This document shows positions 4,842 to 43,198 of a DNA stretch of 49,093 bases, one piece after another. Below the pieces are notes generated by a model. The model did not search any database and had not been told where the DNA came from. It was given only the letters and a program-made list of their open reading frames with translations. The position numbers and the translations under genes were made by a program. Source of the stretch: a virus; IMG/VR virus record IMGVR_UViG_3300044691_000182, positions 1-49,093 of that record, one strand, 5' to 3'. Each line of letters starts with the position of its first letter. Position 1 is the stretch's first letter.

Positions 4842-5041
4842 TCGCACCGCTCGCCTCGCTGCTGGAACTCCGCCCCGGCACCAAAGACCTTGAAGCGTTC
4901 AACATCGAACGGGTGCGCGGCTTTCTGGAACGCAATTTGGGCTGCTCGCGCAAAGAGGTGATCGGCGCGTTGCGGCTGCATCCGCGCACCGTGGCGAAGG
5001 CGATTACCAGGATACGTGACAGCAACAGGAGCGTGGCGTGA
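4838..5041 (+). CDS. Small helix-turn-helix protein (67 aa)
   Basis: GTG start overlapping the previous gene. The C-terminal half (CSRKEVIGALRLHPRTVAKA) has the spacing of a helix-turn-helix, with a basic tail. It could be an early regulator, perhaps of the repeated promoter family, but that is only a guess. It overlaps the RNA ligase start by four bases. Confidence 0.62.
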   Translation: MIAPLASLLELRPGTKDLEAFNIERVRGFLERNLGCSRKEVIGALRLHPRTVAKAITRIRDSNRSVA

Positions 5042-5586
5042 GTTTAGAATTTCAAGCGTTTCCAAAGATCGCTCGTCTCAACCGTGACTGTATCATTACG
5101 GAAAAGTTAGACGGCACCAATGCGCAGGTTCACATTGACGATGACGGCGTGGTGAGCGCCGGCAGTCGCACTCGGTGGATCACGCCCGGCAAGTCAACCG
5201 ATAACTTCGGGTTCGCAGCGTGGGTCGAGAGCAACGCCGATGAGTTACGCAAACTCGGATCAGGTATCCATTTCGGCGAATGGTGGGGCTTGGGCATTCA
5301 GCGCGGCTATGGATTACATGAGTGCCGATTTTCGCTGTTCAACGCCGAGCGTTGGTTGGACAATCCAGAGCGTCCGTCATGCTGCGGTGTGGTCCCGGTG
5401 CTCTATCGTGGTTCGTTTTCCACGCTTGACGTCGAGGATGCAGTGCATCGGCTGCGCGAACATGGATCGGTTGCCGCTCCGGGGTTCATGAGGCCGGAAG
5501 GCGTGATCGTGTGGCATTGCGCGGCGCGATCGATGTTCAAAGTTACCCTGGAAAAAGACAGCGAGCCGAAGGGCGCTGCTGCATGA
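5038..5586 (+). CDS. ATP-dependent RNA ligase, Rnl2-like
   Basis: 182 aa, GTG start. Covalent nucleotidyltransferase fold: motif I is EKLDGTN with the AMP-accepting lysine at residue 23, a GEWWG motif III-like strand at 80-84, EGVIV (motif IV) at 154-158, and FKV (motif V) with Lys168. These enzymes seal 3'-OH/5'-phosphate breaks in RNA in three AMP-transfer steps. The protein is little more than the adenylation domain, lacking the C-terminal domain of T4 Rnl2. In an operon of small early genes, a plausible job is repair of host or phage tRNA cut by defence nucleases. The phage also carries RtcB, which uses different chemistry. Confidence 0.82.
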   Translation: MSLEFQAFPKIARLNRDCIITEKLDGTNAQVHIDDDGVVSAGSRTRWITPGKSTDNFGFAAWVESNADELRKLGSGIHFGEWWGLGIQRGYGLHECRFSLFNAERWLDNPERPSCCGVVPVLYRGSFSTLDVEDAVHRLREHGSVAAPGFMRPEGVIVWHCAARSMFKVTLEKDSEPKGAAA

Positions 5587-10924: not shown

Positions 10925-12268
10925 ATGCGAACCGACCCATATCAGACCCGAGCCCGCGACTTATGCTTGGCTGCCGGTATTGATCCCGATTCCCGCACTG
11001 GCGAGGGTCGTGGGCAGCCTGCGTGGTGCGCGTACCGGGACGCGGCGAGGAAAGAGCATGTCGCCGCCGAACAGGCTGCTACGGCTCTGGAAATGGCGGC
11101 GAACACCATCGCGCCTCAAGCCGAGAAATACCAGAACAGCCCGCTCAAGATTTTCGGCCAGCACGACGACAACACGATTGCGCAGATGCGTAACTGCATG
11201 TCGATCGGCAACGCCGTGGCTGGCGTGATCTGTGCGGACGGACATCTCGGTTATGCCCAGCCGGTCGGCGGCGTCATCGCCTATGAGAAGCAGATCAGCA
11301 TCTCCGGTGTCGGATTCGATATCGGTTGCGGCAACATGGCCGTCCGGCTGGATACGCCTTACGAGGATATCAGCGAGCTTGCCGGCACGATCATCAAAGA
11401 CGTGCACAGGATCATTTCATTCGGCGTCGGCCGGACCAATGACGAGCGGGTCGAACACGCGATGTTTGATGACGCGGACGCGTGGCGCGAAGCGGACCGG
11501 GAGGACTATCGGGCCAAGGCCGTGACCCAACTCGGCACGGTCGGCTCCGGTAACCACTACATAGACCTGATGCGCGACGAAGAGGGTTTCGTTTGGATCG
11601 GCGTGCACTTCGGCAGCCGCGGACTTGGCCATTCTAGCGCAACCAAATATCTCAAAGCTGCAGGTGGCAAAGACGGCATGAACGTCCCGCCCGCCGTGGT
11701 AGACGAGGATTCCGAGATCGGCCGGCGCTACATCGCAGCTATGGAATTGGCCGGTCGGTATTCCTACGCGGGCCGCGAATGGGTCGTGGAGCGCGTCCGC
11801 AAGATCATCGGCGGCAACGTGACCGAGATGATTCACAATCATCACAACTACGCTTGGCGTGAGAATCACAGCGGCAGAGACTTATGGGTTGTCCGCAAGG
11901 GCGCAACGCCAGCCTTTCCAGGGCAGCGAGGTTTCGTCGGCGGTTCAATGGGCGATGATGCTGTGATCCTGGAGGGCGTCGATAGCGAGGAAGCCAAAGC
12001 GTCGCTGTATTCGACCGTACATGGTGCCGGCAGGTTGTTCGGGCGCAAAGAGGCCAAGCGCCGCTTCGACCGCAAAACAATGGATGCATGGTTGCAGGAT
12101 CGAGGCGTGACGCTGGTTGGCGCGGACCTTGATGAAAGTCCGATGGCTTATCGGTCTCTGCCTGACGTTCTGGCAGAACATGCCGGATCAACTAAAGTGC
12201 TTCACACATTGCGCCCGTTCGCGGTCGCGATGGCTGGCGAAGGGGAGTTCGACCCGTGGAAAGACTAG
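10925..12268 (+). CDS. rtcB: RNA-splicing ligase RtcB
   Basis: 447 aa, full length, with an excellent ribosome site (AGGAGG at 10915-10920). RtcB joins a 3'-phosphate or 2',3'-cyclic phosphate RNA end to a 5'-OH end using GTP and Mn2+. The family motifs are present: ADGHLGY at 104-110, DIGCGN at 132-137 with the metal-binding cysteine, GSGNHY, a GVHFGSRG strand, HNHHNY, a VVRKGATPAFPG block, and HGAGR with the guanylated histidine at about 366. In phages it would re-seal RNAs cut by ribotoxins, which leave exactly these ends. It ends within a tRNA-Pro-like sequence. Confidence 0.93.
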   Translation: MRTDPYQTRARDLCLAAGIDPDSRTGEGRGQPAWCAYRDAARKEHVAAEQAATALEMAANTIAPQAEKYQNSPLKIFGQHDDNTIAQMRNCMSIGNAVAGVICADGHLGYAQPVGGVIAYEKQISISGVGFDIGCGNMAVRLDTPYEDISELAGTIIKDVHRIISFGVGRTNDERVEHAMFDDADAWREADREDYRAKAVTQLGTVGSGNHYIDLMRDEEGFVWIGVHFGSRGLGHSSATKYLKAAGGKDGMNVPPAVVDEDSEIGRRYIAAMELAGRYSYAGREWVVERVRKIIGGNVTEMIHNHHNYAWRENHSGRDLWVVRKGATPAFPGQRGFVGGSMGDDAVILEGVDSEEAKASLYSTVHGAGRLFGRKEAKRRFDRKTMDAWLQDRGVTLVGADLDESPMAYRSLPDVLAEHAGSTKVLHTLRPFAVAMAGEGEFDPWKD

Positions 12269-15116: not shown

Positions 15117-15368
15117 ATGACGACCAGCGCCACCAAAGTAGCTTCCTTCGCGCGCAGTTTCACCGAAACCATGGTCAAGGTGCTTGCGGGCATCGCCACA
15201 AGCGAGGAAGCGCCCCACGCGGCGCGCGTAACCGCGGCGAATAGCCTGCTCGATCGCGGATGGGGCAAGCCTGCGCAGCCGATTTCGGGTGATCCTGAGA
15301 ACCCCCTGCAATTGGTGACGCGCATCGAGCTCGTCGGTGTCAAACCGGCGCCCCCGCCGCCCTACTGA
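15117..15368 (+). CDS. Putative terminase small subunit (83 aa)
   Basis: ATG at 15117. Helical protein with AARVTAANSLLDRGWGKPAQ, a signature I associate with small proteins directly upstream of large terminases in proteobacterial phages. Its stop overlaps the terminase large subunit ATG. It is shorter than usual for a small terminase (100-200 aa) and lacks an obvious helix-turn-helix, so the role rests on position plus the motif. Confidence 0.55.
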   Translation: MTTSATKVASFARSFTETMVKVLAGIATSEEAPHAARVTAANSLLDRGWGKPAQPISGDPENPLQLVTRIELVGVKPAPPPPY

Positions 15369-16672
15369 TGACCACGCTACAATTTCGAATCCCTGACAAA
15401 TTGGTTCCGGTTTTCACCGGTCCGGCAATGTATCGCGGCGCATTCGGAGGCCGTGGCTCGGGGAAAACGAGAACATTCGCCACGATGGCCGCTGTTCACG
15501 GCGCGCGCTGCGCTGCCGCTGGTAAAGACGGCGTGATCGTGTGCGGCCGCGAATTCATGAACTCCCTCGCCGACAGTTCATTCGCCGAAGTCAAGGCGGG
15601 CATTCAATCCGATGCTTGGCTCACGTCGCAATATGACGTCGGCGAAAAGTACATCCGCACCCGAGATGGCCGAATCGATTTCGCATTTGCCGGTCTGCGT
15701 CACAACCTCGATTCGCTGAAATCCAAGTCGCGCATTCGCCTGCTTTGGATCGACGAAGCCGAGCCGACCAGCGAAACGGCTTGGCAAAAGATCGACCCGA
15801 CGGTCCGCGAAGAGGAAGCGGAAATCTGGGTCACATGGAACCCGGAAAGCGAAAAAAGCCCGACGCACAAGCGTTTTCGCGACAAGCCGCCGCCGTTCTC
15901 CAAGATCACCGAAATGAACTGGCGCGACAATCCGTGGTTCCCGAGCACGCTGCACGTCAAGCGCCTCAATGACCAGGCTGCGCGCCCCGAGCAATACGAT
16001 CACATTTGGGAAGGCGGCTTTCGAACAGCTATGGAAGGTGCTTATTTTGCGCAACTGCTCGCGGTCGCCAAGGAAAAGGGCCGCATCGGCGCCGTCGAGG
16101 CCGATCCGCTATTGCCGATCCGCGCATTTCACGATTTGGGCGGATCGAGCGCGAACGCCGACGCCTATACGATTTGGGTTGTCCAATGGGTCGGGCAAGA
16201 GATTCGCGTGTTGAATTATTACGAATCGGTTGGCCAGGTGCTCGCGCATCACGTCGGTTGGATGCGAAAGAACGGATATGAAGACGCGATAAACTATCTG
16301 CCGCACGACGGTTCGCGTCCCGACGGCATCGTTGGCAAACGATATGAGGATCACTGGCGAGAGGCCGGGTTCAAGGTCGAGCCGTCCATCAAAAACCAAG
16401 GCCCCGGCGCCGCGACAATCCGTATCGAAGCCGTGCGCCGGCTCGGCGGAAAGTTCTGGTTCAACGAAAAGACGACCAAAGCTGGGCGGGATGCCCTTGG
16501 GCATTACCACGAAAAACGTGACGAAATCCGGCTTGTCGGATTGGGGCCGAATCACGATTGGGCCTCGCACGCCGCAGACTCGTTCGGCCTGATGGCGTGT
16601 TGCTACGAGGAACCGGGGCGCGCGGCGGGATTCGGGCGTGCGTTAAAATATCCGAATATGGGCTATGCGTGA
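15368..16672 (+). CDS. terL: Terminase large subunit
   Basis: 434 aa. DNA-packaging motor: an N-terminal ATPase with Walker A GGRGSGKT (27-34) and Walker B LLWIDEAE (125-132), and a C-terminal RNase H-like nuclease with DLGGSSANADA near 252 and DWASHAADS near 411. These features place it in the Terminase_3/Terminase_6 group, which cuts concatemers and pumps DNA through the portal. Start ATG overlaps the previous stop. Its last ten bases overlap the end of a leftward gene. Confidence 0.93.
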   Translation: MTTLQFRIPDKLVPVFTGPAMYRGAFGGRGSGKTRTFATMAAVHGARCAAAGKDGVIVCGREFMNSLADSSFAEVKAGIQSDAWLTSQYDVGEKYIRTRDGRIDFAFAGLRHNLDSLKSKSRIRLLWIDEAEPTSETAWQKIDPTVREEEAEIWVTWNPESEKSPTHKRFRDKPPPFSKITEMNWRDNPWFPSTLHVKRLNDQAARPEQYDHIWEGGFRTAMEGAYFAQLLAVAKEKGRIGAVEADPLLPIRAFHDLGGSSANADAYTIWVVQWVGQEIRVLNYYESVGQVLAHHVGWMRKNGYEDAINYLPHDGSRPDGIVGKRYEDHWREAGFKVEPSIKNQGPGAATIRIEAVRRLGGKFWFNEKTTKAGRDALGHYHEKRDEIRLVGLGPNHDWASHAADSFGLMACCYEEPGRAAGFGRALKYPNMGYA

Positions 16673-16839
16673 GAAACGATCGCCAGGTTCGATCTACCGC
16701 AATTAACGCTTCGCCAGCCTTGCGCTTTGCAAAGTCTACCGAACCAATATGCCGATAAAAAGTCCTTGCGAGCTTTCATTGCTTCGCGCAATTGCTCGGA
16801 TATATCGTCGACACTTTCGATAGTTGTCGGGTCTATCAT
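16663..16839 (-). CDS. Small leftward protein (58 aa), last gene of the cassette
   Basis: ATG (16839) overlaps the stop of the upstream leftward gene (ATGA) and the stop lies 10 bases inside the 3' end of terL. The product is a small alpha protein (MIDPTTIESVDDISEQLREA, then FLSAYWFGRLCKAQGW). It fills the otherwise empty space after terL. Family not recognised. Confidence 0.55.
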   Translation of the reverse strand: MIDPTTIESVDDISEQLREAMKARKDFLSAYWFGRLCKAQGWRSVNCGRSNLAIVSHA

Positions 16840-17186
16840 TTTGCTTCCCCTTCAAACGCCGCATTCAACACTCGCAGATTCAGCGCCCAGCGGCCTGCAA
16901 TCTTTTTCGCGCCGGGCACCTTACCGCCCTCAAGGGCACCAAACGCGCCCCTGGTTGTGCGTCCCAAGTATGGGGCGATGTTTTCGGCACCCCAAACAAT
17001 CTCATCGGCGACCGCTGCAGGTATCGGCTCGCGGCGACGTTCCGAGAGTTGTCGGGCAGCTTGCGAAATGGAAAGATCGTCGCCCTTCCCAGTTCGAATA
17101 ATGGCCGGTTCGCTGGCGTCAATTGGTGATTGCAGCGAGATGCGGCTAAACTCTTCTTCGTGGTTTTTAGCAGTTGATCGCGTCAT
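16836..17186 (-). CDS. Excisionase-like HTH protein with a scaffold N-terminal motif (116 aa)
   Basis: Residues 70-110 (IAPYLGRTTRGAFGALEGG, then PGAKKIAGRWAL) have the pattern of an AlpA/excisionase-type helix-turn-helix. The first part is different: at 37-54 it reads DLSISQAARQLSERRREP, closely matching residues 50-67 of the phage's own scaffold protein (DISISQAARALSNARRKP). The start is set at the ATG at 17186, which overlaps the previous gene by 20 bases; upstream codons look like another frame's shadow. It could regulate the cassette or bind DNA while interacting with a scaffold partner. Confidence is for the gene; the function is inferred. Confidence 0.65.
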   Translation of the reverse strand: MTRSTAKNHEEEFSRISLQSPIDASEPAIIRTGKGDDLSISQAARQLSERRREPIPAAVADEIVWGAENIAPYLGRTTRGAFGALEGGKVPGAKKIAGRWALNLRVLNAAFEGEAK

Positions 17187-17388
17187 TGATTTTCTCCGGT
17201 AGGCCGAGTTTCTTGCGAAGGGGAATGGTGAGAACCAAAATCTGGCCACCAATTCGGATCACATCGAATTCGCCGCTTTTTATTGCGTTATAAGATGCGG
17301 CGCGTGACAGTCCGAATATCTTTCTAAGTTCCGACACACGAATTGTCGGCTTGGATAGCAGTTCCTCGATTTCGGGCGAGAAGGTCAT
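17167..17388 (-). CDS. Helix-turn-helix protein (73 aa)
   Basis: ATG at 17388 overlaps the previous stop. IRVSELRKIFGLSRAASYNA followed by a basic strand region (IRIGGQILVLTIPLRKKLG) is a typical small excisionase/MerR-like DNA-binding domain covering nearly the whole protein. Unlike its two HTH neighbours it has no scaffold-like peptide. Confidence 0.65.
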   Translation of the reverse strand: MTFSPEIEELLSKPTIRVSELRKIFGLSRAASYNAIKSGEFDVIRIGGQILVLTIPLRKKLGLPEKINDAINC

Positions 17389-17723
17389 GACGTCACCGCC
17401 TCTCGCGCCGCGATGTAATCCGCGTTTGCCTTTTCGCTGATCCGCGTGGAGGCACCGATTTTGAATGTTCTCGGACCGATGCCTTGCTTGGCGAGTTTGT
17501 AATAAAACGAGCGCGAGACGCTGTGCATCTCGCACCATTGGTTGATGGAAAGTGAGCGTCCACCATAGTAGTCTGCAATTTCCCCGAATGTGACAAAGGG
17601 GAGCGCATTGGGATATTTCTTGACGATAGCGTCGCGCAGCGAACCACTCGCTTTCAGCTTTTCATTGAGAGCTTTGATTGCCTCAGATTGCGCACTGCCG
17701 CGGATTGGTGGGATGCGGGTCAT
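17385..17723 (-). CDS. AlpA-like HTH protein with a scaffold C-terminal motif (112 aa)
   Basis: The C-terminal two thirds are a helix-turn-helix (LSINQWCEMHSVSRSFYYKL, then a GASTRIS wing). Residues 8-35 begin RGSAQSEAIKAL and continue KL, SGS, DA in register with the last 39 residues of the scaffold protein, about 19 identities in 28. The nucleotide sequences differ at many third positions, so the similarity is not a recent copy. Start ATG 17723 overlaps the upstream gene. Confidence 0.68.
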   Translation of the reverse strand: MTRIPPIRGSAQSEAIKALNEKLKASGSLRDAIVKKYPNALPFVTFGEIADYYGGRSLSINQWCEMHSVSRSFYYKLAKQGIGPRTFKIGASTRISEKANADYIAAREAVTS

Positions 17724-18256
17724 GCGTGCAATTCCCGATCTGCGTTGCGATGCTTCTTTTCGAACTGTGAATAAAGGTTCCTGATGTCCGCCTCATTCAA
17801 CTCGTTGCCGACAGTTTGAGTAGGCTTCCCATGCTTGGATAGTTTGCCAAAGAACCCTTCAAAGCGCTTCGTCTCGGCGAACGTACAATGACGAAGCTTC
17901 TTGCCGTTTGGCATGGGCAGGTCCAGCATGACGACCTGATGAACCTTTGCCACGAGACCTTGAACGCGGTCATCGCGATCTTTCTTGGCACTTTCGCGGG
18001 CTTCGCGTCGCGCAACGACGTCTTCGATGCGTTGGCGTTCGGGTGCCGAAAATACAACGGAATGACTGTCGCCGATCTTCTCGATTTTTCGTGTCGCATA
18101 TACGCGATCAAAATAGTCGGCGATAATGTCATCGATTGCGGTTGGATGCGCTTTCACTTCGTCTCGAAACGTCGCAAAATGCTCCTTACGTGAACCATCT
18201 GGGTTGTTTTTTAGAACTCGCTCAAAAAGAGCGGTAAGGTTTAGTTTCCGGATCAT
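17720..18256 (-). CDS. Hypothetical cassette protein (178 aa)
   Basis: Helical N-terminal domain, a charged linker (about 88-97), and a C-terminal segment LDLPMPNGKKLRHCTFAET that recalls a conserved ending (MPNGK followed by a DCTG-like turn) of prophage proteins in Alphaproteobacteria. No enzyme motif is visible. Coupled by overlaps on both sides. Function unknown. Confidence 0.6.
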   Translation of the reverse strand: MIRKLNLTALFERVLKNNPDGSRKEHFATFRDEVKAHPTAIDDIIADYFDRVYATRKIEKIGDSHSVVFSAPERQRIEDVVARREARESAKKDRDDRVQGLVAKVHQVVMLDLPMPNGKKLRHCTFAETKRFEGFFGKLSKHGKPTQTVGNELNEADIRNLYSQFEKKHRNADRELHA

Positions 18257-18837
18257 ATTTCGATTCCTAGTTGTTTGAGGGTTTTGAGAGCGTTAGAACA
18301 TTCCGTGTATCTGCGTCGAATGATGTCTCGACTTTTCGCCGCGTATTTGCGATCTGCTTCATGTTTTTTATCGGGGTTTTTTGCAGACCATTGACGCATG
18401 TATGCGGCATGTTTAGCACGTCGATTTTTTGTTACCTCCGGTACTTCGGGTGAGGGATTATCAATTATGCGACTGAGAACTTCCGCAGCAAGCCTCATTC
18501 GCTTACTGCTTTCCCTATTTTTTCGACGTTTTTTTACTTGATCTTCTTTGTTTCGTCGTGTTGCGAGGATGATTTCGCGATTACTCTCATATCGCAATAG
18601 ACTGTTATGTCTGCATTTCTCTTCGGCGCATTTCGCGGAGCATGTAATTTTATTTGCACTAGAGGTTTGGAAGATTACACCGCATCGGCATGAACGCTCA
18701 GCAAATTTCCGGTTTCGCAGTCTTTTTCGACTCTCCAACCTTGCGTTCTTTATTTTCCTGCATTTTGCCGAGCACGTCGTTCTGCGACCAACCGCCACAA
18801 AATCTCCGCCGCAAACGACACACTGCTTGATCGCCAT
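18253..18837 (-). CDS. Zinc-finger basic protein (194 aa)
   Basis: The N-terminus has paired cysteine knuckles CVVCGGDF and CSAKCRK, then CRCG and CSAKCAEEKC, giving two zinc-finger units with the CSAKC signature seen in phage HNH-associated and DUF2116-like proteins. The rest is a very basic helical region (VKKRRKNRESSKRM) suited to DNA or RNA binding. No HNH catalytic motif is visible. The gene is clearly AT-richer than its surroundings, with T-runs on the plus strand, a sign of recent acquisition. Confidence 0.65.
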   Translation of the reverse strand: MAIKQCVVCGGDFVAVGRRTTCSAKCRKIKNARLESRKRLRNRKFAERSCRCGVIFQTSSANKITCSAKCAEEKCRHNSLLRYESNREIILATRRNKEDQVKKRRKNRESSKRMRLAAEVLSRIIDNPSPEVPEVTKNRRAKHAAYMRQWSAKNPDKKHEADRKYAAKSRDIIRRRYTECSNALKTLKQLGIEI

Positions 18838-18852
18838 TGGTCCGGTCCCTGA

Positions 18853-19089
18853 TTAGATCAGCGCCAGCGCCATTTTGCGCGCTTCCGCGATCGACGATGC
18901 CGGAAGGGTGTAGGGGTCGCCGTCTTTACAGAAGCGATACTTAACCGGACCATCCCTGTAGACGATGACCCGAAGGCGCGGCACCTGGCAATCTGCGATC
19001 ATCTGGCGCTCTAGCGGTATTCTGCCGGACTTCAGGTCGCGAGCGAAGGCAGATATCATTTTGTCGGTTACTCGGAATTCCCTTGTCAT
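18853..19089 (-). CDS. Stand-alone integrase arm-type DNA-binding-like domain (78 aa)
   Basis: First gene of the leftward cassette, with AGGAG upstream. PRLRVIVYRDGPVKYRFCKDG followed by LPASSIAEARKMALALI matches the layout of the N-terminal arm-binding domain (DUF4102-like) of tyrosine integrases: three strands and a helix starting with an AEAR turn. No catalytic R-H-R-Y domain follows. It may be a remnant, or a free DNA-binding domain working with the excisionase-like proteins downstream. Confidence 0.6.
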   Translation of the reverse strand: MTREFRVTDKMISAFARDLKSGRIPLERQMIADCQVPRLRVIVYRDGPVKYRFCKDGDPYTLPASSIAEARKMALALI

Positions 19090-19119
19090 CTCTCATTCTC
19101 CTTTGTTGTACCAGAGACT

Positions 19120-19147
19120 AACCTACACCACCAACGTTGCATGTCAA
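19120..19147 (-). promoter_or_regulatory. Leftward promoter of the regulator cassette
   Basis: On the minus strand: TTGACA (19147-19142), 16-nt spacer starting TGCAACGTTGG, TAGGTT (19125-19120). Nearly identical to the early promoter at 6937, so the cassette shares control with the early genes. Confidence 0.75.
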
Positions 19148-19171
19148 CACCTATTTTGCGCCCAAAATCGT

Positions 19172-19202
19172 GTTGTAACTCCCTTAACCTGCCTCCCGGA
19201 CA
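19172..19202 (+). repeat. 31-bp late-block repeat, copy 2
   Basis: GTTGTAACTCCCTTAACCT, five variable bases, CCGGACA, as at 14521-14551. Here it precedes the portal block and lies back-to-back with the leftward cassette promoter. Confidence 0.6.
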
Positions 19203-19242
19203 GTGGTTGCGATCTAGTTCCGAGAGTAACGCACCCGTGCAC

Positions 19243-19410
19243 ATGAGCCCCATACAGCTACGCAGCGCGATCGATTCGGCTGACGGTCCTATTCGGGCCG
19301 CACTACGCGATGGCGACATGGACATGGCGCAGACCCTTGTGTCCCGCAAGGTCGGCTGGCGCATCCTGCTCGGCGAAGTGCCGGTCAAGTTGAAGCGGCA
19401 TCGCCTGTGA
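19243..19410 (+). CDS. Small hypothetical protein (55 aa)
   Basis: ATG at 19243; the longer upstream frame would cross the repeat and the leftward promoter. Helical (IQLRSAIDSADGPIRAALRD, then LVSRKVGWRILLGEVPV). First gene of the portal block. No ribosome site is obvious. Family not recognised. Confidence 0.52.
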   Translation: MSPIQLRSAIDSADGPIRAALRDGDMDMAQTLVSRKVGWRILLGEVPVKLKRHRL

Positions 19411-19628
19411 TATTTTACGTCCTCATAGCAACGATTTGGAGCGCTTATGGCACCGGGTCGATTGACGCTGGACGGCGAGAGTTCGTCAGTTACGGCGATT
19501 GCGTTCACGCCGCCAAGATGTTTTTTTACGAAAACGTTAAGGACGAACCGATGCCGGATGATCGGCGGCGTGGAGTTCTGCCCGGAGGCATCGAGTTTTC
19601 TTGGCGCTGCGAAGGTTACGTTCGATGA
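19407..19628 (+). CDS. Hypothetical protein with N-terminal hydrophobic segment (73 aa)
   Basis: GTG start overlapping the previous stop. A short hydrophobic start (MIFYVLIATIWSAYG) could be a signal or anchor; two cysteines follow. Function unknown. Overlaps the next gene by four bases. Confidence 0.52.
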   Translation: MIFYVLIATIWSAYGTGSIDAGRREFVSYGDCVHAAKMFFYENVKDEPMPDDRRRGVLPGGIEFSWRCEGYVR

Positions 19629-19948
19629 CCGACGTCAAAAGGGTTTTCATCACCCTCGGACTGAACCGCGTTGAAGAAGGCTTTTATCGCTACTCAGACG
19701 GCGTGGTGACGATGACCTATTTCAACGGCGAAACGTTCCTGACGGAAGACGATACTCCAGTGACGGCAACCGCCGCGCTTGACATGGTTGAGCCGGTCGC
19801 CCGCGCGCTGACCAAGCGCATTCGCAAATGGGCGCTTGGCGATTCCGTTCCAGGATTTGAACGCGGCGCATCGATCGGTGGCCGTGATCCAGGCACGTCC
19901 GACGGCTTCGGGCGATCCCTCACCTACTCGTCGGACGGCTGGATGTAA
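19625..19948 (+). CDS. Hypothetical protein (107 aa)
   Basis: ATG in an overlap with the upstream gene. Beta-rich first half (KRVFITLGLNRVEEGFYRYS) and a polar C-terminus rich in Gly and Ser. Directly upstream of the portal gene, with a one-base stop/start overlap. Family not recognised. Confidence 0.55.
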   Translation: MTDVKRVFITLGLNRVEEGFYRYSDGVVTMTYFNGETFLTEDDTPVTATAALDMVEPVARALTKRIRKWALGDSVPGFERGASIGGRDPGTSDGFGRSLTYSSDGWM

Positions 19949-20568
19949 TGGCCAAACCCAAGAAAATGTCACTGATGGACCTCAAGCCGTTACTCGCGGC
20001 TGAAAAGACCAATGCGCTTGCAGGCATGACCGCGGCGTATCTGATGGACGAGCGCGCCCGCGCCATGGACTATTACCTTGGTCACATGGACGAGGACATG
20101 CCGGTTCCGGCCGGTCGATCGCGCGCCGTCTCAACCGACGTTTCCGACACGATCGAAGGGCTGATGCCTAGCCTCATGGACATCTTCGCGGGGTCGGACG
20201 AAGTGGTTCGCTTTGAACCGATTGGCCCGGATGACGAAGAGGCGGCGCAGCAAGAGACGGATTACGTCAATCACGTCTTCATGCAGCAAAACCCCGGCTT
20301 CATGGTGCTTTATTCGTTCATCAAGGATTCGCTGCTCTCCAAAACCGGCATCGTCAAGGTGTGGTGGGAAGAGCGAGAAGAGGAAGAGCGCGAGACGTAT
20401 TACGACATCACCGACGACCAGTTCATGATCCTGGTGCAGGAAGTCCAAGAGTCGGACGGCGCGCTGCGCATCGCCGAGCACACGATTCACAACGGACCGG
20501 ATTCGGACGACGCAGACGAGCCCGAGGCAGACCACGACAAAGACGACGCATCGGAGATGACATCGTAA
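19948..20568 (+). CDS. Portal protein, N-terminal part (206 aa)
   Basis: The first 160 residues match the start of P22-like portal (head-tail connector) proteins: ERARAMDYYLGHMDEDMP, GRSRAVSTDVSDTIEGLMP, then a DEEAAQQETDYVNHVFMQQN segment and LLSKTGIVKVWWEE. The frame then runs into an acidic tail (DDADEPEADHDKDDASEM) and stops. The rest of the portal continues from a TAATG overlap in the next frame. Portals usually form a dodecameric ring from one 600-750 aa chain; here the chain is broken within the clip/crown-side insertion. Confidence 0.75.
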   Translation: MAKPKKMSLMDLKPLLAAEKTNALAGMTAAYLMDERARAMDYYLGHMDEDMPVPAGRSRAVSTDVSDTIEGLMPSLMDIFAGSDEVVRFEPIGPDDEEAAQQETDYVNHVFMQQNPGFMVLYSFIKDSLLSKTGIVKVWWEEREEEERETYYDITDDQFMILVQEVQESDGALRIAEHTIHNGPDSDDADEPEADHDKDDASEMTS

Positions 20569-22469
20569 TGGCCGGCGCAGGACTCATCTCGGACCAACAG
20601 AAAGCCGCGCTGCTCGCCGCAGCCGCCCAAGCCAAAGGCCCCGTCGGCGCCGGTCCGATCGACTTGCAGGGCATGGCCGCGCAGCGCATGCAGCAACCCG
20701 GTTTCCAAGGCGTTCCCCAACCCTCCCAGCCCGGCGCCGCTCCCGGCCTGATACCCCCAGCCGCTACGCTCCCGCCTCCCCCGCCGCCGACCACGCACGA
20801 CGTTGTTGTGATCAGCACCAAGAAGCTCAAGAGCGCGAAGGTGCTCGGCGTTCCGCCCGAAGAGTGGGGTATCGAGCGCGGCGCGCGTGACATCAAGACG
20901 TGCAATTACTGCTTTCATGACGTCGTGACCAAGACCGCTGGCCAGTTGATCGCGGAAGGTTTCGACGCCGATCAAATCAACGGCCTCACCGACTACACTG
21001 GCTTGACCGAAATCGAGACGCTGGAACGCGACACCGTTGCAGAGCATCTTTCGGGCGATTCGGCCGGTGGCGTGGCGAATGCCGCGGGACGCCTGGTCAA
21101 GATTACCGAGCACTACATTCGGATGGATTACGAGGGCAACGGGCGCCCATGTCTGTATCAGGTGGTGACCGGCGGCGATCAGGGCGAAATCCTGCGCAAG
21201 GACGGCAAAGATTGTATCACGCCGTTTGACGCGATTCCGTTCGCCGCGACCACACCGGTTCCGCAGACGCACCGCTTCTTTGGTCGCTCGATCGCAGACC
21301 TCGTGATGCCGGTGCAGCGCGAAAAGACCGCACTCAAACGTGGCGCCTTGGACAACATCTATTTGCGCAACAATGCGCGCGTCGAAGTCTCCGAAAAATT
21401 CGCCGGGCCGAATACGCTCGACGATCTTTTGGTCTCGCGGCCGGGCGGCGTAATCCGTACCATGCAGCCGGGCGGCATCAACTGGCAAGTCGTGCCGGAC
21501 GTTTCGTCGTCGGTCTTTCCAATGATGCAATACCTCGACGCGGAACTTGAGTCGCGCACGGGCGCCTCGAAGCAGTCGCAGGGCATTGACGCCAACGCGC
21601 TCCAAAATCAATCGGCGACAGCCGTTGCGCAGGTTTTTTCGTCCTCTCAGATGCGCATGAAGCTTGTCGCGCGCATCACGGCCGAAGGCGTTCGCGATAT
21701 CTTTTCGCTGCTGCACGCCACGATCCGCAAGCATGGCCAAGAGAAACAGACCGTCCAGCTTCGCAAGAAGTGGGTCGACGTCGATCCGCGCGGCTGGAAG
21801 GCCCGCAACGACATGACCATCAACGTCGGGCTTGGAACCGGCGGCAAGGCGCAGCAATTCGCGCAGACCATGGCCATTGGCAACGTCCAGAAGGAAATGA
21901 TTCAGGCCGGCAAAACGAACCTGGTCGGCGACGCGGAGCTTTACAACACGGCCGCCGAGCTCACCAAGATCATGGGCCACAAGAGCCCCGATCAGTTTTT
22001 CAAGAACCCGGAAGCCAAGAACCCCGACGGTTCCCTGGTCAATCCGCCGCCCCCGCCCCCGCCCGATCCGAAAGCCGCTGCCATCGCGGCAAAAGGCCAA
22101 GTTGATCAGCAAGCCGCGCAGACCAAGGCGCAACTCGACCAACAGAAAGCATCGCATCAGGCTCAGTTGGATCAGCAGAAAGCCGCAGCCGATCAGATGC
22201 ATCAGCAGATAGCGGCCGCAGTCGAACAAGCGACGGTCAAACTGAAAGCCACTCTTGACGCAAAATTGAAGATTTTGGACGCACATATCAAGGCAGCGTC
22301 CGCGGCGCAGACTGCGCAACATACGCAGGAAGCGCACCACGCCGACCTACATCACGAAGACCAAAGCCATCGAATGGACATGGCTCGCGGTGCGCTCGAC
22401 ATGATTGCGACCGCGCATACCCACGATACGGCACAAGAAGCCCAAACGGAGAAACACAAAGATGACTGA
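20568..22469 (+). CDS. Portal protein, C-terminal part (633 aa)
   Basis: ATG at 20568 sits in TAATG, overlapping the stop of the N-terminal part; the frame is -1 relative to it and open back to 20361. A glutamine/proline-rich leader (about 1-80) precedes the portal core (GVPPEEWGIERGARDIKTC, later FGRSIADLVMPVQREKTAL and QGIDANALQNQSA). After a poly-proline turn near 500 there is a long Gln/Ala/His-rich coiled coil, probably the barrel helix. Either two chains assemble together or a -1 frameshift fuses them; re-initiation at TAATG seems simplest. Confidence 0.78.
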   Translation: MAGAGLISDQQKAALLAAAAQAKGPVGAGPIDLQGMAAQRMQQPGFQGVPQPSQPGAAPGLIPPAATLPPPPPPTTHDVVVISTKKLKSAKVLGVPPEEWGIERGARDIKTCNYCFHDVVTKTAGQLIAEGFDADQINGLTDYTGLTEIETLERDTVAEHLSGDSAGGVANAAGRLVKITEHYIRMDYEGNGRPCLYQVVTGGDQGEILRKDGKDCITPFDAIPFAATTPVPQTHRFFGRSIADLVMPVQREKTALKRGALDNIYLRNNARVEVSEKFAGPNTLDDLLVSRPGGVIRTMQPGGINWQVVPDVSSSVFPMMQYLDAELESRTGASKQSQGIDANALQNQSATAVAQVFSSSQMRMKLVARITAEGVRDIFSLLHATIRKHGQEKQTVQLRKKWVDVDPRGWKARNDMTINVGLGTGGKAQQFAQTMAIGNVQKEMIQAGKTNLVGDAELYNTAAELTKIMGHKSPDQFFKNPEAKNPDGSLVNPPPPPPPDPKAAAIAAKGQVDQQAAQTKAQLDQQKASHQAQLDQQKAAADQMHQQIAAAVEQATVKLKATLDAKLKILDAHIKAASAAQTAQHTQEAHHADLHHEDQSHRMDMARGALDMIATAHTHDTAQEAQTEKHKDD

Positions 22470-23201: not shown

Positions 23202-23500
23202 TGACCAATCTCGACAACCTTACCCGCGACACCGGCCGCGCCGTCCGAGCTCGCCAGTTGCTTGAAGACGAAATGCTGGTCGACGGCTTCAAGGTGCTTG
23301 AAGACGCGTATACGCTCGGCTGGCGAAGCTCCAAGCCCAGCGACACCGCCGGACGCGAAAAGCTGTTCTTGGCCATCAACATTATCGGCATCGTTCGCGA
23401 GCATCTGCAATTGGCCGTGACCAATGGCAAAATAGCCGAAGTCGAATTGAAAGAAATTGCCCAAGCCGCCGAGCGCAAGAAGCGCTTTGGCGTGTTCTAG
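23195..23500 (+). CDS. Conserved helical phage protein (101 aa)
   Basis: ATG at 23195 (an alternative at 23201). Entirely helical: RARQLLEDEMLVDGFKVLED, then a DTAGREKLFLAINIIGIVRE helix and a basic tail. Helical proteins of this pattern are common between portal and capsid genes of podoviruses and siphoviruses; exact role unknown. Confidence 0.62.
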   Translation: MLMTNLDNLTRDTGRAVRARQLLEDEMLVDGFKVLEDAYTLGWRSSKPSDTAGREKLFLAINIIGIVREHLQLAVTNGKIAEVELKEIAQAAERKKRFGVF

Positions 23501-23520
23501 CCCGGCCCGGCCCCGAGACG

Positions 23521-23566
23521 CATTATATAATTGTTGACATACACCGTTCACTGTGCTTGTCAACGT
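23521..23566. promoter_or_regulatory. Late palindromic operator/promoter, copy 1
   Basis: GTTGACATACA and TGTGCTTGTCAAC form an inverted repeat (GTTGACA/TGTCAAC arms) within 23533-23564. On the plus strand TTGACA (23534-23539) is followed after 16 nt by CTTGTC; on the minus strand TTGACA is followed by TATGTC. With the flanking CATTATAT it matches 29273-29317 at all but a few positions. Confidence 0.65.
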
Positions 23567-23579
23567 TGGAGACGACCAT

Positions 23580-23861
23580 ATGCAGTATGTTGGCGTAGGT
23601 AGAATTGGCGTAACGCAGAGTGTCGCCTTTAGCGCGACGCCGGGCGCCGTGACGAATGGCGTCTCGATTGGCGTCACCAAGGTCCGCATCCTGGTCACCG
23701 CCGACGCCTTTGTGACGACCGACGGCACCACGCCGAGCGCAACGAATGGCGCATATGTTCCCGGCCTCTCGCCCGAGTATTTCACCGTGACGCAGGGCCA
23801 GAAGCCGGCCGCCGTGGAAGTTACCGCTTCCGGCACGATGTACGTCAACGAGATTTCGTAA
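23580..23861 (+). CDS. Beta-rich virion-type protein (93 aa)
   Basis: ATG at 23580, 16 bases after the palindrome. A small all-beta protein (VRILVTADAFVTTDGTTPS, later YFTVTQGQKPAAVEV), typical of capsid decoration or fibre-base proteins. First of four consecutive beta-rich genes. Assignment by composition only. Confidence 0.58.
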   Translation: MQYVGVGRIGVTQSVAFSATPGAVTNGVSIGVTKVRILVTADAFVTTDGTTPSATNGAYVPGLSPEYFTVTQGQKPAAVEVTASGTMYVNEIS

Positions 23862-25684: not shown

Positions 25685-28425
25685 CCGTAGGACTTTTGTC
25701 TTTCGCTTCGTTTTCGTTAACTGGAACGTCAGTCGTCGGCGGTTTTGGTCCCAACGCATTCGTCTACATGAATTTCGCCAAGCAGGCATCTAGCCTGTCA
25801 GGTGGGACAGCAGCGTGGCCCGGCATATTGTCGGCGGACGGATATCCGACATCCGCTCCGTCTTCTACCCTGTCCGGAAATTACTCGCTGCCTATCGAGT
25901 ACTTTGGACGGCATCGTCTGTCGTTTTCTGGCCAAGGCAGCTTTGCCTTGTCGGGACCTCCGATCATCATCTATAGCGGTGGCGCTTCGGTCAACGGAAT
26001 CGGTACGCCGACCGGCAGCGTAGCTTTCGGAATTGCGATCCTTGGGCAATCGAACCCGAATGTAGAATTTGCTTTCGGTGCGCTGATTGCCAGCGTAACA
26101 AACAATGGCTCTGGTTTGGTTCGTCTGACGGGATCGATCGCGCTTGCGTTCGTGAATGTGGTCAATGGCAACGTCGTTCAGATCAACAACGTTGCCAATC
26201 TAACCGGCCAGTTTGTTGTCGCGAACCAGACAAACACCACGATCGATCTCGTAGGATCGACCTTCTCTGCATCAATGGTGCCTGCCACGGGTGGTCCCGG
26301 CCCCCAAGCAGAAGCCATTCTTTCGATGGACTCTGTAACGTTCCAGTTTCCGACAATTGGACCGTATGCATCGATGAGCAATCTTATCCAATGCATGAAG
26401 TCTGATATCGATGGCACAAACCCATTCGGACTTCAAAATGGTTACCAGTGCAATGCTGATCTTGTTGCGCAGATCAAGCAACTAAATCCAAAATATCTCA
26501 GGCTGATGGAATCAAGCGCTGTCATCAACAGCACGGAGACTAACTACACTTACCGACCGAAGGTAACGAACTTCTCGAACGCATCATCTAATGAGAAATG
26601 GTATCCCGATTATTGGGTTGGGGCACTCACCAACGGCGGTTCAAGTGCCTTCACCTGCTCAAATCCGACAGCTTCCGGCAGCGGAGCCTATGTTGATGGC
26701 GAAGTCGTTCAAGGGCAATTGAACGCCGCCAATACCAATGTAAACCCGACGATAAATGTCAACAGTCGCGGCGCTGCTCCGATCTTCGATCAGAATGCCA
26801 CGTTGCAGAACCTTGTGATCTCAGGGTCTCCGACAACGGGCGACGTGATCTCGATTACGTTCACTGGATCATATATCAGCGGCAGCCCGCATGTTCTCCA
26901 TTACACGGTATTGAGCAGCGATAATTCGCTGAACGCTCTCGGGATCAGCCTCACGACTGCGATCGACAATGACACGACGCTTGCTGCGGCGGGGATCACT
27001 GCCACTTGGTCAACGAATCAAGTAGTCGGAACAATCCTCTACAATGTGAATGCCGGATCAGGAACGACGTTCAGCGTATCGGTTAGTGGTGCCGCGACCG
27101 AAACTATCACTCTCGGTAGGTTTGCGGTCGGCGCGCTTGCGACAAGCCAACTCGTGACGCTGACTTATAGTGCCGTCCTTGGCGGTTGGATATTAGCTAC
27201 CCCACCGATTAGTTTGCAAGGCGGCGGCCTGAACGGTGGCATGCCGACCGAGACGATGTGTGAGCTTTGCAACCGCGCCAACGTCGGGCTGTGGGTGAAT
27301 ATTCCGCTGCTCTACACCAACACTTCTGTCACGTCTCTCATTTCGAACGTCGTGACCAATCTTAACGCTTCACTCCCTCTCAGCGTAGAATATTCCAACG
27401 AAGTCTGGAATTTCTCACAGGGTCTTACTTTCGTGACCCAAAATATGGGTCTTGCGCTGGGCTTTCCAGCCGACTCTCTGCGATCCATTTACGGTTTCTA
27501 CGCTCTGCGGGTTCGCCAGTTCATGCAAACCGTGGCGAGCACATGGACAGGAGTAGGGCGAAGCCGGTCACTGCTGAACTGCGCGATGTTGAGCCAAGCG
27601 GCAGGCAATACGTCGCTCAACAACACATACCGTTTTCAGGGCACAGACCTAACTACCACGAACGCTTTCTATGCCGCCAAGGGCGGCCCCGGCGCGACGG
27701 CGGGTACGACATACACCAGCGTCGGAAGCCGCCCGATTGATTTTTGTGACTCCGTTGGATACGCAACGTATTGGTATGGCGCGTGCTTTGGGCAAGGTGC
27801 ATCGGAGTGGACCGGGACGCTTAGTAACTTCGCGGCTGCCTTGCAGGCGGGTGCCGACTATGCAAGCGGAAATACGACATCAATGGCGAATGCCCTCACT
27901 GCCGTCTTCAACGACGTTGTGTCTGGAACACTGGGAACCGGCAATGATGCTTCTCAGACGATTAATGCACTGATTTCCGAAGCGGCAGGCTGGTACACGA
28001 TTATCTCGGGATACGACTCAGCAAGATCGGGACTAAGTTTGTCGCCGCTCAATACGGTGCTCTATGAAGGTGGCAATCAAGTCAGCTTCCAAGTCGGCGC
28101 TCAAGGCTTCACGACCTCACCGGCCCCCTTGGCCACGCAATTTGGCAACAACGGTTGGAATACGACCCCTTACGGCGCGAGCAACACCATCGTCGCGCAG
28201 CAAATTCTTAATCTATGGTTTGCCTTCTTGAATAGCAGCGTTGGCGGGAGCGCGCTGACGACCCTCTACAACGGGATACTGGCGCAAAATCCGGGTCGTA
28301 AAGTGAGCCCCGCGCAGTTCCAGTACGAGGGTCCAGCGCTATGGTCGCTCTTTCCGGGCGATCCGTCCACGACGCCGTTTCAAACCTATAACGCAATTCA
28401 GGCGTTCAACTCGGTGGCGCATTAG
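25681..28425 (+). CDS. Large glycosidase-like virion protein (914 aa)
   Basis: ATG at 25681 overlaps the previous stop (ATGA). An N-terminal anchor (about 1-130) is followed by an FCCH-like beta domain (about 135-205: VTNNGSGLVRLTG through TIDLVGSTF), a linker domain, and from about 540 a TIM-barrel-like part with LSVEYSNEVWN near residue 569 and YEGGNQVSF later. The EYSNE-W signature with flanking NIPLLYTN resembles putative glycoside hydrolases of environmental bacteria, with the Glu as candidate catalytic residue. A role in cutting host surface polysaccharide is inferred. Confidence 0.65.
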   Translation: MTVGLLSFASFSLTGTSVVGGFGPNAFVYMNFAKQASSLSGGTAAWPGILSADGYPTSAPSSTLSGNYSLPIEYFGRHRLSFSGQGSFALSGPPIIIYSGGASVNGIGTPTGSVAFGIAILGQSNPNVEFAFGALIASVTNNGSGLVRLTGSIALAFVNVVNGNVVQINNVANLTGQFVVANQTNTTIDLVGSTFSASMVPATGGPGPQAEAILSMDSVTFQFPTIGPYASMSNLIQCMKSDIDGTNPFGLQNGYQCNADLVAQIKQLNPKYLRLMESSAVINSTETNYTYRPKVTNFSNASSNEKWYPDYWVGALTNGGSSAFTCSNPTASGSGAYVDGEVVQGQLNAANTNVNPTINVNSRGAAPIFDQNATLQNLVISGSPTTGDVISITFTGSYISGSPHVLHYTVLSSDNSLNALGISLTTAIDNDTTLAAAGITATWSTNQVVGTILYNVNAGSGTTFSVSVSGAATETITLGRFAVGALATSQLVTLTYSAVLGGWILATPPISLQGGGLNGGMPTETMCELCNRANVGLWVNIPLLYTNTSVTSLISNVVTNLNASLPLSVEYSNEVWNFSQGLTFVTQNMGLALGFPADSLRSIYGFYALRVRQFMQTVASTWTGVGRSRSLLNCAMLSQAAGNTSLNNTYRFQGTDLTTTNAFYAAKGGPGATAGTTYTSVGSRPIDFCDSVGYATYWYGACFGQGASEWTGTLSNFAAALQAGADYASGNTTSMANALTAVFNDVVSGTLGTGNDASQTINALISEAAGWYTIISGYDSARSGLSLSPLNTVLYEGGNQVSFQVGAQGFTTSPAPLATQFGNNGWNTTPYGASNTIVAQQILNLWFAFLNSSVGGSALTTLYNGILAQNPGRKVSPAQFQYEGPALWSLFPGDPSTTPFQTYNAIQAFNSVAH

Positions 28426-29204
28426 GCCTCCGAAGGCACCTTCATATGGCTGGGGCGCGGTTGTAGTTCTTTTTCGACCACGATCATTCCCTGATAAAAG
28501 TGCAGGCCGCTAATCTCACGATGAGCGTTGGGCACGCTTGGCGATCGATCGTGGAAGTCAGCGTTCATGTCGTCGGCAATGTTCTTTGCAACTTCGATGA
28601 AGTTGGTCTTTCGCCTGAAACCACCACCATAATATCCGCGGGCGTAAGCGGTGGTGGTGTCCTCGCAAATATAGACACCCTTGTCCGCCAGAAGCGGGAA
28701 CAGCGCTTGGAAGCTGGCGCGCTGGTGTGATGCAACATGGCTACCGTCATCGATCACTACGTCAACGCCGCCTATCTCGGCAACGACACCCTGCAAAAAA
28801 GTGGTGTCGGCCTGAGAGCCGATACGAACATGGCCGGCAATGCCGTCGTACTTCTGGCACGCCGGATCGATATCGACCCCGAAGATTGTCGCAGCGTCCC
28901 CGAAGTAAGTGCGCCAGAGGTGCAGGGAGCCGCCACGATAAACGCCTAGTTCAAGGATTCGAACAGGTGTGTTTCGGAATCGAGACAGGTGGCGATCGTA
29001 CTTATCGAGATAGCCGCGCCATTTGTGGACCGTCGATCCTTGGTTGCCGTAGAAGGCCTTATGCATCGGCGTGGCGCGCTTTTCGCAATCTGGGATATCG
29101 GCAGGATCGATTGCGAATGGAGCGATGTCGGGACCGCTAAACTTGATGCCGACTTTGGCGGCGTAACCCTGAAAACGCATGATGAGATCGTCAGAAAACG
29201 GCAT
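28422..29204 (-). CDS. Class I SAM-dependent methyltransferase (260 aa)
   Basis: Rossmann motif I is ILELGVYRGGSLHLW (about 93-107), with VDIDP as motif II and DVVIDDGSHVASHQ as the motif IV region, a layout of the macrocin/MycE O-methyltransferase group that methylates sugar hydroxyls. It is read leftwards against all its neighbours and converges with the large glycosidase-like gene (stops overlap). It may methylate a host or virion glycan, or a small molecule. It looks like an independently acquired gene. The divergent palindrome at 29273-29317 could supply its promoter. Confidence 0.75.
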   Translation of the reverse strand: MPFSDDLIMRFQGYAAKVGIKFSGPDIAPFAIDPADIPDCEKRATPMHKAFYGNQGSTVHKWRGYLDKYDRHLSRFRNTPVRILELGVYRGGSLHLWRTYFGDAATIFGVDIDPACQKYDGIAGHVRIGSQADTTFLQGVVAEIGGVDVVIDDGSHVASHQRASFQALFPLLADKGVYICEDTTTAYARGYYGGGFRRKTNFIEVAKNIADDMNADFHDRSPSVPNAHREISGLHFYQGMIVVEKELQPRPSHMKVPSEA

Positions 29205-29272
29205 TCGAAGCTCCAGTTTTACAAGGTCTTCACGCTACCCCACGTTGTCCCTCCCAACAACCCCACAAATCA

Positions 29273-29317
29273 CATTATATTTTTGTTGACATACAGCGTT
29301 CACTGTGCATGTCAACG
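29273..29317. promoter_or_regulatory. Late palindromic operator/promoter, copy 2
   Basis: GTTGACATACAG (29285-29296) and CTGTGCATGTCAAC (29303-29316) are near-perfect inverted repeats. The plus strand has TTGACA-16-CATGTC toward the scaffold gene; the minus strand has TTGACA-16-TATGTC, plus TATAAT further on, toward the methyltransferase. It looks like a shared, bidirectional control site. Confidence 0.7.
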
Positions 29318-29337
29318 CCATTTTTATGGGACCATTT

Positions 29338-30588
29338 ATGACGCTCGCCTCCGACTACGTTGGCCACATCTCCGCATTCTCCCGTCCGTTCGGTGCGCCG
29401 CGCATGCACATGGACGAGGACGCCGCCAGCGCCCCGCCCGACTCGGGTGCGGTAGTTCGTGAAGCTTCGGCCGACACCGGCCACGATATTTCGATTTCGC
29501 AGGCTGCGCGGGCATTGTCCAACGCGCGCCGCAAGCCAGCCGCACCCGCGGCCGAACCAACACCTGCCGAGAGCCCCGAGGCGCCGGCAGAACCAGAATT
29601 GTCCGATGAGGGCAGCGCCGCCCCTGACGAAAGTCAGGCTACCGGCGAGACGACGGAGCAGAACCAGGCCGAAACGCCTCCAATTCCGCTTCCGAAGTCT
29701 TGGACGAAGGAACAGGCCGAGCACTGGAACGCTCTACCCCGCGCGACTCAGGAATACCTGACGGAACGGGCCAGCAAAGACAGTCTCGAAGTGCGCCGGG
29801 TCCAAAACGAGGCCGCCGCAAAGGTCCAAGGCTTAACCGCCAAGGAACAGGCAGCGGAGCAGGCACGCACTCAATACGAGACCAAGATCAAATCTGTCGT
29901 TGAAGTACTGGAAAACGAACAGCTTCGCGAATTCCCCGACATTCGGACTCAGGCCGATCTCGACAAACTGTCGTCGGAATATTCGAAGCTGGCGCTAGAG
30001 GCTGAAAGGCTCAGTGAAACCGATCCGTTTGCGGCTCTCCAAGCACAAACGAAAGCGAATCGGGTTCAAGCCAAACTTTCCGCTTGGAACATCCATCAGC
30101 AAAAATTGGTGGCGGCCACAGGCGAATTGAAGGCAGCCGAAACACGCAAGTCGCAGGAAAGCAAAAACGCTTGGGCAAAGCATGTCCAGGACGAATCCAA
30201 GCTTGCGGCTGAAAAAATTCCAGAACTGGCAGACCCGATCAAGGCCAAAGCATTGATGGAACGCGTGGTCCCTCGCCTTTCGGAACTAGGCTTTACGCAA
30301 GACGAATTGACCAAACTGAACTCCGGTGACGAAAAGATTTCGATCCACGATCACCGCATGCAGCAGTTGATTTATTCCGATTTGCGCCTTGCCGAAATTC
30401 TTAAAGCACCGAAGGCCATCGCAGCAAAACCTGTCCCGCCCGTGCAGCGACCCGGAACGCCCGCGCCCCGTGGCTCGGCGCAGTCCGAAGCGATCAAGGC
30501 CCTCACAAACAAACTCAACTCTTCCGGCTCATTCAAGGACGCCGTTGCGCTGCGCCTCGCGCAGCAACGGGCCGCAAGCCGGGCATAG
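29338..30588 (+). CDS. Scaffold protein (416 aa)
   Basis: Directly upstream of the capsid gene, acidic and proline/alanine-rich at the N-terminus, then long coiled coils (about 130-330), as expected of a capsid scaffold that shapes the procapsid and leaves on maturation. A PLPKSWTKEQAEHWNALP block near 120 is typical of such proteins in related phages. Residues 50-67 (DISISQAARALS...) and the last 39 residues (starting RGSAQSEAIKAL) recur in two leftward HTH proteins. In P22 the extreme C-terminus of the scaffold binds the coat protein. The start is uncertain: ATG 29326, 29338 or 29404. Confidence 0.75.
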   Translation: MTLASDYVGHISAFSRPFGAPRMHMDEDAASAPPDSGAVVREASADTGHDISISQAARALSNARRKPAAPAAEPTPAESPEAPAEPELSDEGSAAPDESQATGETTEQNQAETPPIPLPKSWTKEQAEHWNALPRATQEYLTERASKDSLEVRRVQNEAAAKVQGLTAKEQAAEQARTQYETKIKSVVEVLENEQLREFPDIRTQADLDKLSSEYSKLALEAERLSETDPFAALQAQTKANRVQAKLSAWNIHQQKLVAATGELKAAETRKSQESKNAWAKHVQDESKLAAEKIPELADPIKAKALMERVVPRLSELGFTQDELTKLNSGDEKISIHDHRMQQLIYSDLRLAEILKAPKAIAAKPVPPVQRPGTPAPRGSAQSEAIKALTNKLNSSGSFKDAVALRLAQQRAASRA

Positions 30589-43060: not shown

Positions 43061-43198
43061 GGTGTTGATAATTGTGGTGAGACCATACGCAAGTCCAATG
43101 CCAACGAAACTCGCCAAGTAGCCGTTCGGCGTCCATTGCCAATGGATGTTTGACGACACGACCGCGAAAATGATTACGCCCTGAAATAGGAACCACAT
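43025..43198 (-). CDS. Leftward membrane protein (57 aa)
   Basis: ATG at 43198. Two hydrophobic helices separated by WQWTPNGY (FLFQGVIIFAVVSSNIHW and ASFVGIGLAYGLTTII). From memory, the SNIHWQWTPNGYLA turn is common in short phage membrane proteins. It fills the gap between two late genes, and its start shares the CATG of the next rightward gene. A lysis or exclusion role is possible but unproven. Confidence 0.6.
   Translation of the reverse strand: MWFLFQGVIIFAVVSSNIHWQWTPNGYLASFVGIGLAYGLTTIINTLRTGGWRQLFR

Follow-up and report, generated by a model that had tools for sequence, protein, structure and literature searches.

Segments resembling the two ends of a phage head scaffolding protein are found on two small DNA-binding proteins of the same phage

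The stretch of DNA analyzed here (referred to as the window; 49,093 nucleotides) is a virus record of 49 kb, the head genes of which form an SU10-like module. The genes and segments of interest are the following, where "tag" denotes a segment of a DNA-binding protein that resembles either the C-terminal (C-type) or the N-terminal (N-type) conserved segment of the scaffold.

15368-16672: terminase large subunit
16836-17186, reverse strand: DNA-binding protein of 116 amino acids; residues 37-54 are the N-type scaffold tag, and a small conserved DNA-binding domain spans residues 62-115 or so
17025-17078, reverse strand: N-type tag, DLSISQAARQLSERRREP
17167-17388, reverse strand: third small HTH protein, untagged, lying between the two tagged genes and overlapping both
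17385-17723, reverse strand: DNA-binding protein of 112 amino acids; residues 8-35 are the C-type scaffold tag, and an HTH_17-like domain spans residues 56-109 or so
17619-17702, reverse strand: C-type tag, RGSAQSEAIKALNEKLKASGSLRDAIVK
17720-18256, reverse strand: protein of 178 amino acids and unknown function in the overlapping chain; distantly related proteins are encoded in genomes of a single alphaproteobacterial family
18253-18837, reverse strand: Cys-rich cassette protein of 194 amino acids, overlapping 17720-18256
18853-19089, reverse strand: cassette protein of 78 amino acids, sharing 43% identity over 47 amino acids with a protein encoded by the closest relative
19948-22469: portal, spread over two reading frames
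29338-30588, forward strand: head scaffolding protein of 416 amino acids (phrog_3927, E 1e-17; structure hits to phage scaffolding proteins)
29485-29538, forward strand: scaffold N-terminal conserved segment, residues 50-67, with a predicted helix at 53-65
30469-30585, forward strand: scaffold C-terminal conserved segment, the last 39 residues, with predicted helices at 380-396 and 399-415
30604-31560, forward strand: major capsid protein (SU10_MCP; PF17236, E 5e-93), the presumed partner of the scaffold C-terminus

The scaffold is assigned to its family both by the phrog_3927 profile and by its place immediately before the gene for the major capsid protein, an order that is retained in relatives. 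Elsewhere in the record, the portal consists of two overlapping frames (19948-20568 and 20361-22469), and the first frame also ends after about 164-213 codons in nine of the ten relatives checked, while that of relative G008 is a single frame; the arrangement represents either a split gene or a programmed frameshift. A methyltransferase-like gene (28422-29204) lies on the opposite strand within the late gene region, and two short forward-strand stretches, 23302-23595 and 29186-29338, the latter just upstream of the scaffold, resemble each other (12 of 17 residues in translation) and are possibly a repeated DNA element. The RtcB RNA ligase encoded at 10925-12268 is 89% identical to that of relative G005, whereas the structural genes of the two phages are only about 40-67% identical, which suggests a recent transfer; a second RNA ligase is encoded at 5038-5586. 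A scan that covered part of the phage's genes revealed no protease.

The interval between the terminase and portal genes is occupied by a leftward gene group (16836-19089), the last five genes of which overlap one another by 4-20 nt and form a single leftward chain, suggesting coupled translation. In the relatives that were checked, the terminase gene adjoins the portal gene, and no counterparts of the cassette were identified in them except for the partial match to the 18853-19089 protein. The G+C content of several cassette genes is 0.45-0.57, versus 0.586 for the genome as a whole. We regard the cassette as a probable insertion that took place in the lineage of this phage. By eye, the 18853-19089 protein, which has no Pfam match and has a longer homologue in relative G002, resembles the arm-DNA-binding part of integrases, without the catalytic part. 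Among virus records, we found no relative of either the 16836-17186 domain or the neighboring 178-residue protein.

A first-pass annotation of this DNA had claimed that two of the cassette proteins carry peptides of the phage's own scaffold, and both matches were confirmed, the coordinates and translations of the two proteins also being correct. In the 17385-17723 protein, RGSAQSEAIKALNEKLKASGSLRDAIVK aligns without gaps to scaffold RGSAQSEAIKALTNKLNSSGSFKDAVAL, with 19 of 28 residues identical, while in the 16836-17186 protein DLSISQAARQLSERRREP is identical to scaffold DISISQAARALSNARRKP at 13 of 18 positions. When the whole scaffold was compared with a six-frame translation of the window, its two best non-self matches were the C-tagged protein (E 9e-7) and the N-tagged protein (E 0.003), and for neither tag did any of 2000 shuffled scaffolds equal the real score. 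Furthermore, we built HMMs from the aligned ends of the relatives' scaffolds, excluding both the window phage and its closest relative. The C-terminal model detected the scaffold (6.9e-15) and the 17385-17723 protein (1e-6), with the next match at 0.57; the N-terminal model detected the scaffold (3.8e-5) and the 16836-17186 protein (1.2e-4), with the next match at 0.2. Thus, only the scaffold and the respective tagged protein are convincingly recovered by each model. The C tag, which lacks the scaffold's last ~13 basic residues, is most similar to the phage's own scaffold (19 of 27 positions), followed by that of the closest relative (17) and then by more distant scaffolds. In both tags, identical positions fall at family-conserved scaffold sites (mean consensus frequency 0.60 versus 0.36 for the C tag and 0.54 versus 0.39 for the N tag). 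Homology of the tag peptides to conserved scaffold segments is supported by these sequence comparisons.

It had also been proposed that the codons of the tags and the scaffold differ. This is clear for the C tag, in which only five of the 19 shared residues use the identical codon (6.6 expected by chance from codon usage), while the six of 13 observed for the N tag (4.2 expected) are not decisive. By comparison, the scaffold of this phage and that of its closest relative have identical codons at 17 of 23 residues in the C segment and at 182 of 299 in the whole gene, proportions that differ significantly from that of the C tag (Fisher p 0.005 and 0.004, respectively). As the silent sites of the C tag are randomised while the protein sequence has been retained, this tag is old and under long-term selection on the protein; a recent DNA duplication is ruled out for it by the same randomisation.

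The DNA-binding domains themselves have homologues in bacteria. Of 297 genomes belonging to one bacterial family, 18 encode homologues of the 17385-17723 domain (best E 1e-17, per genome), as do seven virus-type contigs; nearly all of the alignments begin at residue 46-58, and the top-scoring homologues are only about 58-65 residues long. For 16836-17186, homologues were found in seven of the 297 genomes (best E 1e-14, per genome), the best of them aligning from about residue 51-62; one match (L105) begins earlier, yet its sequence does not contain an N-type segment. The 17385-17723 protein matches HTH_17 (PF12728) at E 7e-4 and 20.3 bits, under the curated cut-off of 27, while the 16836-17186 protein has no Pfam match and PHROG matches only at E 0.087 and above. 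Since untagged homologues of both domains occur in bacteria or prophages, the scaffold-like segments are N-terminal additions, and apart from this added stretch the two carriers would therefore be, as judged from these alignments, small DNA-binding proteins of an ordinary kind.

To place the segments within the scaffold, we used an AlphaFold model computed with 19 aligned scaffolds as input (mean pLDDT 73). Its body is long and helical, its N-terminal tail is disordered, with residues 53-65 forming the sole helix there, and a C-terminal hairpin (380-396 and 399-415) follows a disordered linker. The counterparts of the tags are, in this model, the ordered terminal elements of the scaffold. A PDB fold search with the model returned nothing at E <= 0.001. 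The model of a tagged protein alone was of low confidence (pLDDT 46), and we therefore base no structural claim on it. In its predicted fold, a helical hairpin, the C segment is similar to the end of the P22 scaffold that binds coat; there, the coat-binding element is a helix-loop-helix made up of residues 271-300, and coat is no longer bound when the 11 C-terminal residues are removed (PMC9965877). The C tag retains the first helix, the loop and the start of the second helix, ending where the basic end of helix two begins. As it stops short of the stretch that is essential for coat binding in P22, the simplest coat-binding version of the hypothesis is weakened, and this truncation is the main weakness of a coat-docking reading.

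We also determined how widespread such tags are. In 25 related phage records, many of them fragments, segments of the record's own scaffold were absent from all other proteins, barring a partial second scaffold in G007. The latter (2-415, L065), considered at first sight a second carrier of the N segment, proved to be a partial second scaffold gene, and differs in sequence from the full scaffold of G007 at 42686-43771. When each segment was searched against 397 order-level genomes, only scaffolds and weak matches to unrelated proteins were returned, and the similarity of an 818-residue protein from a different virus record (L003; 53% over 30 amino acids) was judged to be due to chance or too weak. 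A search of phage proteins, proposed in the first-pass annotation, was also run: neither peptide was matched in 50,697 phage records, a collection that holds two records of the scaffold family. Low complexity, a generic HTH linker and chance, which had been named as possible sources of the resemblance, were examined by means of the shuffles and the leave-out profiles and did not account for it; together with the absence of matches among the phage records, these analyses rule out a low-complexity or generic-linker origin. The combination of tag and DNA-binding protein rests on a single virus record.

The explanation that we tentatively favor is that the tags are co-opted scaffold docking elements that would bring DNA-binding proteins to assembling capsids, where these proteins may be retained as minor head proteins and be ejectable with the DNA. 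The observed basis of this proposal is the homology, the fusion architecture, the constraint on the C tag, the overlapping gene order, and the location of the corresponding segments at the scaffold's ends. Two small DNA-binding proteins would each have been extended at the N-terminus by one of the scaffold's two terminal docking elements. The C-type tag would bind the partner of the scaffold hairpin, i.e., the coat protein, while the N-type tag would bind a head partner of the scaffold's N-terminal helix, and this docking may recruit the DNA-binding proteins to the assembling procapsid. Once phage DNA enters, they could remain on it as minor head proteins, and could then leave the head together with the DNA at ejection. 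With much the same reserve, we suggest more generally that the phage may address its own DNA-binding proteins to the capsid via both scaffold docking elements, divided between two proteins that would be co-expressed, either for head incorporation together with the genome or for sensing of assembly, which would tie DNA binding to the making of the capsid. If the tags do dock, they would be natural scaffold-derived address peptides on DNA-binding proteins, serving virion delivery or a coupling of gene control to head assembly. The analysis also marks, for this scaffold family, two short segments as likely partner-binding parts and provides ready-made peptides for tests.

Sequence cannot choose between building into heads, sensing and interference. 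Building into heads is given a slight preference because engineered scaffold fusions and T4 targeting peptides work in this way (cargo has been loaded into P22 shells by scaffold C-terminal fusions (PMC9962691), and internal proteins of T4 enter proheads via a short N-terminal targeting peptide (PMC7697877)), and because a DNA-binding protein could stay on the packaged genome. The homology and gene-order evidence also fits with the tagged proteins being sensors of the assembly state, in which case free coat or another head partner would bind the tags late in infection and alter the DNA binding of the regulators, thereby feeding back on transcription. The presence of a DNA-binding domain and a tag on one chain would permit this; however, 16600-20000 contains one promoter-like site, fewer than in shuffled sequence, and we consider such sensing unlikely. 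Somewhat less likely still is that the tags compete with the scaffold for coat, much as SaPI1 CpmB competes with the 80alpha scaffold, and thereby delay early assembly or hinder related phages. CpmB and the 80alpha scaffold do bind coat via the same C-terminal 16 residues (PMC5644958), and both the absence of the cassette between terminase and portal in relatives and the low G+C of several of its genes would suit an element of this kind, but it is the phage's own scaffold that the tags resemble most, so that self-interference would need timing, and the shared segment of CpmB is C-terminal and complete, whereas the tags are N-terminal and the C tag is truncated.

It is improbable, in our estimation, that the segments drive association with themselves or with the scaffold rather than coat binding, so that the regulators form mixed oligomers with the scaffold. 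Both segments are predicted helices, and the C tag has the first helix and loop without the basic end expected to touch coat, as this explanation would have it, but the obvious association region in the scaffold model is the long helical body and not the terminal segments. We give equally little weight to the idea that the tags are inherited leftovers of fusions with scaffold fragments, now functionless. Their occurrence in a single genome would agree with this, as would the N tag taken alone, given its proportion of identical codons; against it, the silent sites of the C tag are saturated while its peptide is retained, with identities at family-conserved positions, and two distinct fusions lie within one gene chain. 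Finally, the N segment (SxSxAARxL) is similar to the generic helix starts of HTH proteins, as might be expected if the tags were unrelated look-alike helices that arose by convergence or chance. The shuffles, the leave-out profile matches, the lack of matches in the phage records, and the fact that non-scaffold proteins of the 25 related records and 397 order-level genomes give only weak, chance-like matches make this very improbable.

Components of this arrangement have counterparts in known systems. The DNA-binding domains are up to 52-58% identical to those of small HTH_17 or excisionase-type proteins of alphaproteobacteria and their prophages; while those proteins are untagged, the carriers in this phage add an N-terminal extension of about 55 residues that includes the scaffold segments. 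The likeness to the end of the P22 scaffold (PMC9965877) lies in the predicted C-terminal two-helix hairpin following a flexible linker. In P22 cargo fusions (PMC9962691), a scaffold segment is likewise fused to other proteins, but these fusions are engineered and keep the C-terminus intact, whereas the natural C tag lacks the last ~13 residues. The T4 capsid targeting sequence (PMC7697877) is likewise a short N-terminal peptide on otherwise unrelated proteins; it is about 10 residues long and is removed by the head maturation protease, while the tags described here span 18-28 residues and their addressing to proheads is putative. The 80alpha scaffold and SaPI1 CpmB have a common C-terminal helix and hook that binds coat, so that there, too, a second protein has the C-terminal segment of a scaffold (PMC5644958), a segment that is truncated in the C tag and whose coat-binding role in the present phage is putative, by analogy with P22. 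A satellite-encoded protein of the CpmB type is excluded here by the location of the tagged genes in the phage's own head-gene region. Moreover, CpmB serves the satellite as an internal scaffold, contains a dimerisation domain and has the full motif at its own C-terminus (PMC5644958), whereas the carriers in this phage are its own DNA-binding proteins, their tags are N-terminal, and the second carrier has the N-terminal segment of the scaffold.
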